64,000 nucleotides of DNA, taken from NCBI RefSeq assembly GCF_027364955.1, contig NZ_DAHXOI010000005.1, positions 124,001 through 188,000 on the forward strand, read 5' to 3'. The position numbers were made by a program, and so were the translations under genes. This DNA comes from Ferrimicrobium sp. GTDB taxonomy: Bacteria; Actinomycetota; Acidimicrobiia; Acidimicrobiales; Acidimicrobiaceae. Shown piece by piece: positions 49,031-57,453 of this stretch; position 1 is the stretch's first letter, and each line of letters opens with the position of its first letter. The notes below the pieces were generated by a model, which was not told the origin of the DNA, did no database searches, and worked only from the letters and a program-made list of their open reading frames with translations.

Positions 49031-49251
49031 ACTACGACCGTAGATCCAACTGCGACCATCGGTTCTCGTCACCTACTGGGGGGCCCAGCAACCGATCCTG
49101 ACTTGCGCGCACGATGAAACCGAATATTACCCCACGCCTCGATCAAGTATCTCGATGGTAGTACGATAATAAGACATGCGAACCTGCCGACAAGGTGACG
49201 GGTGGAACTTGTCGCTCTACGAAACCCACCCCGATAGGCTCCTCTAACCCG

Positions 49252-53232: not shown

Positions 53233-53261
53233 CTGGCACAGACAGCTAAAGCGAGTAACGT
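53233..53261 (+). promoter_or_regulatory. Promoter of nrtR with possible autoregulatory inverted repeat
   Basis: CTGGCA, 17-bp spacer, TAACGT, then 7 nt to ATG 53269: a leaderless layout. GGCACAGAC (53235-53243) and GTTTGTGTC (53260-53268) are inverted at 7 of 9 positions and flank the spacer. Confidence 0.45.
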
Positions 53262-53268
53262 TTGTGTC

Positions 53269-53964
53269 ATGAACCCGTGTCATGTTCATCCGTCGATCTC
53301 GATCGCAGTGGTACCCTTTTTGCTCTCCCGCCAACAACCTCACGTACTGCTCAGCCGATCCTCCACAAGCCTCTCGCTGCTACGCATTGGTGTTGGGGAG
53401 CTCGATGTCACGCTCACGCACTACGCCGACCGCTTCCTAGGGCGCACGCTAGGCCTGACCATCTCGCCCCTCACCCAGTGTGGTGCGGACCAAGATCTCA
53501 GCCAACACCCACCAGCGATCGACATCTGCTATTACGGCTTCACCACCAGTCAATTCATCAACGGTGACGACCTGGTTTGGACGCCCCTCTATCATCTCCT
53601 CCCCGAGGAGGACCATCGTCACGCCGAGACCAGACTGGACGAAGCCTCCGACAGGATCAACCAGGGTGGCGGAGTCGCCAGCAGCGAGGTCTCCCGATAC
53701 GATCTCGGCCTCATCGCCACGGCCCTGGCGGCGATTCGCCACTCCCTGGATCGGCGACCCGTGATCGAGGAGATCGAACCGGAAGCCTTCACACTCTCCT
53801 ACCTGCAGCATCGCACCGAGATGCTGCTCGGAGTACGCCTTCATACCCAGAATTTTCGCCGCAAATTACTCGACTCCGGCTACCTCGAACCGATCGACAT
53901 CGCCGTCAATCAGACGCTTGGAAGACCGGCTCTTCTCTATCGCGTTCGTAAGCACCAGGGGTAG
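53269..53964 (+). CDS. nrtR: NrtR-family NAD biosynthesis regulator with degenerate Nudix domain
   Basis: NrtR proteins repress NAD genes and sense ADP-ribose with a Nudix-fold domain. The C-terminal winged helix is clear: FTLSYLQHRTEMLLG, then NFRRKLLDSGYLEP and GRPALLYRV. The N-terminal 140 residues keep the fold pattern (IAVVPFLL, WTPLYHLLP) but have no recognisable Nudix box, so hydrolysis is unlikely. 231 residues. It sits 27 bp before nadA in the same direction, pointing to control of nadABC and itself. Confidence 0.87.
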   Translation: MNPCHVHPSISIAVVPFLLSRQQPHVLLSRSSTSLSLLRIGVGELDVTLTHYADRFLGRTLGLTISPLTQCGADQDLSQHPPAIDICYYGFTTSQFINGDDLVWTPLYHLLPEEDHRHAETRLDEASDRINQGGGVASSEVSRYDLGLIATALAAIRHSLDRRPVIEEIEPEAFTLSYLQHRTEMLLGVRLHTQNFRRKLLDSGYLEPIDIAVNQTLGRPALLYRVRKHQG

Positions 53965-53990
53965 CTACCCGCGCGACGGTCGTTAGACTA

Positions 53991-54010
53991 ATGCTCATCA
54001 TGAGTATAAT
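53991..54010 (+). promoter_or_regulatory. Palindromic operator overlapping the nadA promoter
   Basis: ATGCTCATCATGAGTAT (53991-54007) is a palindrome with 8-bp arms, one mismatched pair and a central C. It overlaps a perfect TATAAT at 54005-54010. A repressor bound here would block nadABC. The adjacent nrtR makes NrtR the likely binder. It differs from the NrtR sites I know from other phyla. Confidence 0.55.
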
Positions 54011-54989
54011 TGCACCACCGGAGGATATGACGGCGTATCGGGAGCAACTTTCCGAGCTGCTTGAAGAGCAAAATGCCATCATTCTCGCCCACAACTATCA
54101 ACCAACTTGGATCAAGGAGCTCGCGGACTTCACTGGCGACTCCCTCTACCTTTCACAGAGAGCGCGTGATACTGATGCCACCACCATCATCTTCGCTGGG
54201 GTGCGCTTCATGGCGGAGACCGCCAAAATCCTCTCACCCGACAAGGGTGTCTTCTTGCCGGCCGAGGATGCCGAATGTTCCCTTGCTGACTCCATCACCT
54301 CCGCAGAACTGATCGAGTGGAAGCGTCGCTACCCAGGGGCCATCGTCGTGGCCTACGTCAATACTTCGGCTGCCGTCAAGGCCCTTGCCGACGTCTGCTG
54401 CACCTCCGCTAACGCCGTTGAGATTGTTGGCTCAATTCCTCCGGATCGCGAGGTACTCTTCTTACCGGATCAGTTTCTCGGCGCCTACGTACAACGGGTG
54501 ACTGGCCACCCGGGAATGCATATCTGGATGGGAGAATGCCATGTCCACGCAGACATCACCCCCCAACATTTGGCCGACAAGATGGCGCAGAATCCTCTCG
54601 CCACCCTGATGATCCATCCAGAGTGTGGCTGTACCACTCCCGCACTCTATCAACTCGCCGACGCCAGCGGCGGGCCCACCTCCCAGCGGGTACGCATCCT
54701 CTCCACCAACCAGATGATCGAGGAGGCCAAACGCTCCACGGCCACCCATGTCCTCGTCGCTACGGAGATCGGCATCATGTCCGACCTCATCAATGCCAAC
54801 CCCGCGGTGCGCTTCGAGGCGGTCAATCCTCGGGCACGTTGCCCCTACATGAACCGCGTCACCCCCGAGCGCCTGGTCGAGACGCTGCGAGATCGCATCG
54901 GCGAGGTTCACGTCGACCAAGAGATCGCGGCCCAGGCACGATTAGCTGTTGAACGGATGGTCGATCCGGGGTTACGCGCATGGGGTTAA
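53991..54989 (+). CDS. nadA: Quinolinate synthase A
   Basis: Fe-S enzyme condensing iminoaspartate with dihydroxyacetone phosphate to quinolinate. AIILAHNYQ, GVRFMAETAKIL, and the cluster cysteines in ADVCCTSAN, HPECGC and RARCPYMNR are present. 332 residues from the first ATG. If TATAAT at 54005 is the promoter, the true start must lie downstream, at ATG 54027 (GGAGG only 2 nt away), giving 320 residues; ATG 54000 is a third option. Overlaps nadB by 10 bp. Confidence 0.94.
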   Translation: MLIMSIIAPPEDMTAYREQLSELLEEQNAIILAHNYQPTWIKELADFTGDSLYLSQRARDTDATTIIFAGVRFMAETAKILSPDKGVFLPAEDAECSLADSITSAELIEWKRRYPGAIVVAYVNTSAAVKALADVCCTSANAVEIVGSIPPDREVLFLPDQFLGAYVQRVTGHPGMHIWMGECHVHADITPQHLADKMAQNPLATLMIHPECGCTTPALYQLADASGGPTSQRVRILSTNQMIEEAKRSTATHVLVATEIGIMSDLINANPAVRFEAVNPRARCPYMNRVTPERLVETLRDRIGEVHVDQEIAAQARLAVERMVDPGLRAWG

Positions 54990-56509: not shown

Positions 56510-57453
56510 AGCCCTCTCCCATCATCGACCCCCCCATCATCGATCTGGCCATCATCGACCTGGCCCTGGATGAGGATCTCGTTGCACCGGTCACCGCCAC
56601 CGAGGGGATCCACCCTCTCCGTGGGGCCGATGGTGTCGCACCGACATGGCAACCACTCCCGCATGCAACCGCAGGAGATCTCACCGGCTCACTCGTAGCG
56701 CACCAGGTAGTAGCTCTGGCTCTACGCGCCCGCGCTCATGGTGTTTTCGTCGGACAAACGGTGGCCTCGGTGGTACTAGGCCGGGTGGCAGAACGCCTGG
56801 GTACCCCAGCCCCGACCTACGATGCCGTCGTTGCTGATGGGACGATGGTGGAACCCGGTGCGACACTCGCCTGGCTACGTGGTGATCTGCAGACGGTCTT
56901 GGCAGCAGAACGGACGATGCTGAATCTACTCTGCCATCTTTCGGGCGTAGCGACCACCACGCGGAGCTACGTCGACACCATCGCAGGGACGAAGGCGGTG
57001 ATACGTGATACCCGCAAAACGACCCCGGGATTACGTAGTCTGGAGAAGTATGCGGTTCGTTGCGGGGGTGGCAGCAACCATCGCCTCGGCCTCTGGGACG
57101 CCATTCTTATCAAAGATAACCATCTCGCCTTCGCGCCCATGGAGGAGCTCGTGACCCGCGCCCGGCTATCTCATCCGAATCGACCACTCGAAGTCGAGGT
57201 CGATAACCTCACGCAACTACACCAGGCCCTCGATCTTGGGGTCGATCTGATTCTTCTCGACAACATGGAACTTGGAATGATCGCTGAGGCGGTACAGATC
57301 AGTCGAGGTCGTTGTCGACTCGAGGTCTCCGGCGGCGTGGGGATCGATCGCCTACGAGCGATCGCCGAAACCGGGGTGGATTATATTGCGGTCGGAGCGC
57401 TCACCCACTCCACACCTATTCTTGATCTTGGTCTGGATTATCTGGATGCGTAG
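56503..57453 (+). CDS. nadC: Nicotinate-nucleotide pyrophosphorylase (carboxylating)
   Basis: Converts quinolinate and PRPP to nicotinate mononucleotide. RDTRKTTPGLRSLEKYAV, GGGSNHRLGLWDAILIKDNHL and LEVEVDNL are canonical, and SGGVGIDRLRAIAETGVDYIAVG closes the barrel. 316 residues, longer than the usual 280-290. The excess is an N-terminal run of three five-residue repeats (PIIDP, PIIDL, AIIDL) and an insertion of about 30 residues between LDED and GDLT. The start overlaps the nadB stop by 7 bp. Confidence 0.95.
   Translation: MVKPSPIIDPPIIDLAIIDLALDEDLVAPVTATEGIHPLRGADGVAPTWQPLPHATAGDLTGSLVAHQVVALALRARAHGVFVGQTVASVVLGRVAERLGTPAPTYDAVVADGTMVEPGATLAWLRGDLQTVLAAERTMLNLLCHLSGVATTTRSYVDTIAGTKAVIRDTRKTTPGLRSLEKYAVRCGGGSNHRLGLWDAILIKDNHLAFAPMEELVTRARLSHPNRPLEVEVDNLTQLHQALDLGVDLILLDNMELGMIAEAVQISRGRCRLEVSGGVGIDRLRAIAETGVDYIAVGALTHSTPILDLGLDYLDA
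56518..56562 (+). repeat. Three 15-bp tandem repeats at the 5' end of nadC
   Basis: Units of five codons, each with ATC ATC GAY at its core, in frame, encoding PIIDP, PIIDL and AIIDL. They lengthen the first helix of NadC. Confidence 0.9.

Follow-up and report, generated by a model that had tools for sequence, protein, structure and literature searches.

The 64,000-nucleotide stretch of Ferrimicrobium sp. DNA considered here (below called the window) derives from a genome of 3.08 Mb and carries the de novo NAD operon nadABC, preceded by a gene for a putative transcription regulator. The locus raises the question of what kind of regulator this is, which DNA site it would recognize and how far its control would extend. 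A first-pass annotation had proposed an NrtR without a Nudix box that controls nadABC through a new palindrome. The sequence comparisons described below point instead to a compact NadQ-type protein that very probably acts as a local repressor of the adjacent operon.

The regulator gene and the operon adjoin each other, as had been stated, and the gene order on the + strand is regulator, nadA, nadB, nadC. The regulator (231 aa) is encoded at 53269−53964 and is followed on the same strand by nadA (quinolinate synthase, 54000−54989; PF02445, 344.8 bits when scanned from 54027), nadB (L-aspartate oxidase, 54980−56509) and nadC (quinolinate phosphoribosyltransferase, 56503−57453). The nadB product was assigned from Pfam FAD_binding_2 and from NCBIfam models, the best of which are L-aspartate oxidase models with scores under the curated cut-offs; nadC matches PF01729, PF02749 and TIGR00078 above cut-off. 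For comparison, the Ferrimicrobium set was defined as the seven closest genomes, i.e., that of the window and six others (G001−G006).

Directly upstream of the regulator gene in all seven Ferrimicrobium species is a gene for a GAF-PAS-GGDEF-EAL protein (1343 aa at 49195−53226 on the + strand of the window, ending 42 bp upstream of the regulator gene); such a gene was not found near the regulator gene in four more distant loci tested, and a tie between c-di-GMP and NAD control through this neighbor would be a guess. At 57416−59099 on the − strand, genes for a bifunctional-nuclease-domain protein and an FtsW/RodA-like protein (the latter name is our own reading) are convergent to nadC, and relatives of both also adjoin nad genes in the Ferrimicrobium, g5 and G012 loci. 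A search with Rfam found no RNA families within 49000−60000.

The C-terminal domain of the regulator is a winged helix of the NrtR type (PF21906, 54.5 bits, cut-off 27), and the AraR winged helix of Pfam is matched as well, more weakly. This is the sole PF21906 match in the genome; orthologues were found in all six other genomes of the genus that were searched and, when weaker relatives are included, matches were found in 12 of 60 genomes, the own genome counted. The N-terminal domain gave no Pfam match to NUDIX at E values up to 1. Here, the Nudix motif RELxEExG reads RFLGRTLG, and the two metal-binding Glu positions are occupied by R and T in the four species compared (4/4), which agrees with the earlier claim that the domain lacks catalytic residues. 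Among the 72 NrtR-type loci of the survey described below, all seven scored residues of the Nudix box are kept in 29 (our own count), and the six NrtR-type loci with a nadA match nearby keep three to five of the seven. Judged from these residues, degenerate Nudix boxes are common in the superfamily and loss of the box in the regulator is unremarkable. A structure prediction from a four-sequence alignment gave no confident fold (mean pLDDT 38.1, pTM 0.23).

The name NrtR was not borne out. The closest solved structure is that of NadQ (7q91; 2.6e-13 in a single-sequence search), and a profile built from nine compact proteins matched 7q91 at 2.8e-24 with 89 bits, covering both domains, as compared to 49 bits for AraR (5bs6) and 41 bits for NrtR (3gz5); the N-domain stretch of the match to 7q91 is weak, with an i-E of only 0.015. 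The N-domain retains W...Y..LP.ED.R, a motif seen in NadQ, and the signature Y..[FLY]P.[EA][DN] is found in 26/26 canonical NadQ rows, in 2/2 g5 rows, in 0/1 g7 rows and, by strict regular expression, in five of the seven Ferrimicrobium rows, where Q replaces E in the remaining two. None of 31 NrtR rows has this signature. A profile of the compact N-domain gave 95.3% (score 54.3) against canonical NadQ and also 84.4% (score 38.6) against NrtR. This latter alignment, together with the Pfam name of the winged helix (NrtR_WHD), the NrtR-like length of 231 aa and an unrooted tree that is compatible with a sister relation to NrtR, would fit a true, ADP-ribose-responsive NrtR that uses a NadQ-like site independently; such an identity is nevertheless improbable, given that both NrtR controls match NUDIX above cut-off while the regulator does not, that the NadQ signature of the compact forms is missing from the NrtR rows, that the regulator reaches only 25.7 bits with the NtrR equivalog of NCBIfam, the cut-off of which is 400, and that, as seen below, the DNA site is not found downstream of any of the 72 NrtR-type genes surveyed.

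The DNA site points in the same direction. The putative operator, ATGCTCATCATGAGTAT (53991−54007, + strand), begins 26 bp after the end of the regulator open reading frame and agrees at every specified letter with the core (ATRCTCAnnnTGAGYAT) of the NadQ consensus, which is ttATRCTCannntGAGYATaa according to a published comparative-genomics study (PMC5343134); the palindrome is therefore not new, as had been supposed, but the published NadQ site. The exact sequence ATRCTCANNNTGAGYAT is found at the same place, between the regulator gene and nadA, in 7/7 Ferrimicrobium species. In the window, ATGCTCATCATGAGTAT is the sole match with fewer than three mismatches to the generalized pattern, and the genome search that had been suggested earlier returned one copy of the 17-mer, with no second exact copy. 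In G001 and G002, the site upstream of nadA is the only one within one mismatch. Farther out the operator decays, with one mismatch in G050 and two in G010 and G016, and in two genomes of the same family that share the regulator−nadA order (G012 and G018) no site was found within two mismatches. The expectation that relatives with the same gene order share the palindrome thus holds throughout the genus and only in part outside it.

In G301 (L067 887−924), two NadQ-like sites, one exact and one with one mismatch, are found about 20 bp apart near a NadQ-type gene and nadA, and a pair of sites is likewise present in two of the Rhizobiaceae plasmid copies, which suggests double operators in some lineages.

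In a rival reading, the palindrome would merely result from the sequence around the nadA start, i.e., from the codons for M-S-I-I and from the promoter, with the regulator acting elsewhere. The right half-site is indeed coding in 7/7 species (ATG AGY ATW), which would by itself keep it conserved (94% identity), but the left half-site, which precedes the start codon, is 98% identical among the seven species as compared to 55% in the 60 bp farther upstream. Codon constraint does not explain the site, because its non-coding half is as conserved as the coding half. Furthermore, the motif is seen again beside NadQ-type genes elsewhere, both in other classes and in the Alphaproteobacteria, and in the own genome there is no other candidate site within one mismatch outside coding sequence. 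We consider a by-product very improbable and retain the reading of the palindrome as the operator.

The promoter of nadA had been placed at TATAAT, which is present at 54005−54010 within the coding region, but across the seven species this string reads TATAAT, CATAAT, TATTAT or CATTAT, a variation that matches what the codons AGY ATW ATT allow. Conserved instead is TAGACTA (TATACTA in one species), found just upstream of the operator in all seven species; its first six bases, TAGACT at 53984−53989 on the + strand (TATACT in one species), are the probable −10 box of nadA. The operator starts one base after this box and spans the nadA start, which is most likely at 54000 (MSIIAPP), because the alternative ATG at 53991 reads ATA in one species and that at 54027 is absent at that place in three. 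In front of the regulator gene, the pattern TA[AG][CT]GT-N7-ATG is found in nine of ten loci compared, with a spacing of exactly seven in 9/9; in the window it is represented by TAACGT at 53256−53261 (+ strand), the probable −10 box of the regulator gene. TANNNT boxes at such a distance mark leaderless genes in Actinomycetota, and the regulator mRNA is therefore likely to be leaderless. A scan for consensus sigma-70 promoters found none for either nadA or the regulator gene.

Ten further sites within one mismatch were found in the own and same-genus genomes, nine coding and one intergenic. The coding ones reside in genes read by us, from their translations, as dop-like (three), nitroreductase/BluB-like (two), dnaN-like (two), phosphatase-like (one) and HIT-family-like (one); the lone intergenic site is seen only in G003, before a TetR-type gene. 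A regulon extending beyond nadABC is unsupported. There is no site within three mismatches near the regulator's own promoter, which makes self-control through this site unlikely. Regulation would most likely be local, through one operator and with nadABC as the only target.

The association of this site with NadQ-type genes extends beyond the genus. Two surveys with PF21906, one of the class and one of the phylum, with 296 genomes each and overlapping samples, gave matches in 79 and 61 genomes, respectively, and 99 loci were sorted, according to which of five reference proteins they matched best, into 27 NadQ-type and 72 NrtR-type loci. In the 400 bp that follow the regulator gene, a site with at most two mismatches was found in 20/27 NadQ-type and 0/72 NrtR-type loci; for the 400 bp that precede it, taken together with the opening 150 bases of the frame, the corresponding numbers were 0/27 and 3/72. 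The other seven NadQ-type loci, some of which are at locus ends, have no such site within 400 bp. Most NadQ-type loci adjoin nadA or nadB, and in the phylum, outside the class, NadQ-type genes were found in G419, G467 and G603. One genome of the same order (G050; L039, L040) has a NadQ-type gene before nadABC and, elsewhere, a second, NrtR-like protein without a site.

Among alphaproteobacterial plasmid records that read as NadQ, seven of eight have nadA, nadB and nadC downstream, and in six of those seven a site within two mismatches is found in the gap between the regulator gene and nadA; it is absent in Mesorhizobium. In the plasmid copy of Sinorhizobium sp. B11 (CP091033.1; L050 5744−6728), nadA is divided between two frames and lacks an annotation. 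An origin of the Ferrimicrobium locus by transfer of the entire operon from Alphaproteobacteria was also weighed, but for nadA the identities speak against it: NadA shares 53−61% identity with its counterparts in five other Acidimicrobiales loci and about 38−42% with those of the alphaproteobacterial plasmid copies (46% in one fragment). Within the class survey, too, NadA identity is only about 40% in many of the NadQ-type loci, which points to a mixed history of nadA.

In a tree of the regulators, the compact proteins (Ferrimicrobium, g5 and g7) form a clade with support 100/98, canonical NadQ from Actinomycetota and Alphaproteobacteria forms another (97/92), and NrtR a third (100/98). Because this tree is unrooted and g7_L041 is on a long branch, it does not tell which two of the three are sisters, and three separate lineages do not by themselves show that the compact form descends from NadQ and not from an ancestor shared with NrtR. 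The distance from the Y..[FLY]P.ED motif to the FTL of the winged helix is 46−58 residues in the compact and 100−176 in the canonical proteins. Before the winged helix, the 26 canonical NadQ rows conserve the segment FG..G..WD..RVLERYELLYEAGLV, a feature noted here rather than a published NadQ criterion, which is missing from the compact forms. The compact form might represent a lineage of its own, next to those of NadQ and NrtR, that retains the operator and the target of NadQ; having lost both this segment and the catalytic Nudix residues, it might sense a different ligand, e.g., quinolinate or NAD. We regard this proposal as tentative and rather unlikely. If true, it would show that effector sensing was swapped under an unchanged DNA code.

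A model for the compact NadQ-type repressor builds on the established gene order, domain architecture and identity and conservation of the operator, and on a promoter layout obtained by comparison. A dimer of the regulator would bind the 17-bp operator one base behind the −10 box of nadA, thereby covering the start codon as well as the point where transcription begins, and the bound protein would block RNA polymerase and turn nadABC off once the ligand signals sufficiency. The Nudix-like N-domain, having lost its catalytic glutamates, would serve as the ligand sensor. Operator binding, repression and dimerization are what we infer for this protein. Activators do not normally work from a site that lies over the transcription start, behind the −10 box; with the operator in just that position, an activator of nadABC is extremely improbable. 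Of the control through the palindrome that the first-pass annotation had put forward, the non-catalytic, Nudix-like regulator and the conserved site are retained, at the level of sequence, and the name NrtR is replaced.

From the above discussion, it follows that the kind of regulator, the operator site and the nadABC target are already known. What is new is the compact variant in Ferrimicrobium and near relatives. The combination of NadQ and nadABC in several Actinomycetota is apparently also new, in that no earlier account was found in the literature searched, the coverage of which is incomplete. The annotation of an actinomycetotal NAD regulator is thereby corrected, the NadQ site and the accompanying gene order, known from Proteobacteria, extend to several Actinomycetota lineages, and a naturally shortened protein becomes available with which to ask which part of NadQ senses the ligand.

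Among the known systems, AraR (5bs6) belongs to the same winged-helix superfamily and gives the weaker match, with the 49 bits mentioned above as compared to 89 for NadQ; it is an arabinose regulator with a sugar regulon (PMC4666351). NrtR (3gz5, MsNrtR) is ADP-ribose-responsive and shares the two-domain plan and a homologous winged helix with the compact form, but it lacks the NadQ signature (31/31 rows) and its NUDIX domain is recognizable by Pfam in both controls. Control of nadABC by an NrtR, which had been expected to extend the known regulon in this phylum, was already reported for MsNrtR of Mycobacterium smegmatis, where the site is GTTTTCGA-N7-TCGAAAAC (PMC6800001) and is unrelated to the Ferrimicrobium palindrome. 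NadQ (COG4111; 7q91−7q94), the nadABC regulator of Proteobacteria, has the same operator consensus and the same nadABC gene order, and shares with the compact form the LH[TK]QNFRR winged helix, the motif W...Y..[FL]P..D.R and the lack of a catalytic Nudix box. ATP is said to be the NadQ ligand, in work attributed to Minazzato et al. from 2022. The two proteins differ in that NadQ is about 290−340 aa long and has the FG..G..WD segment, whereas the compact form, at 231 aa, is without this segment and resides in a separate deep clade.
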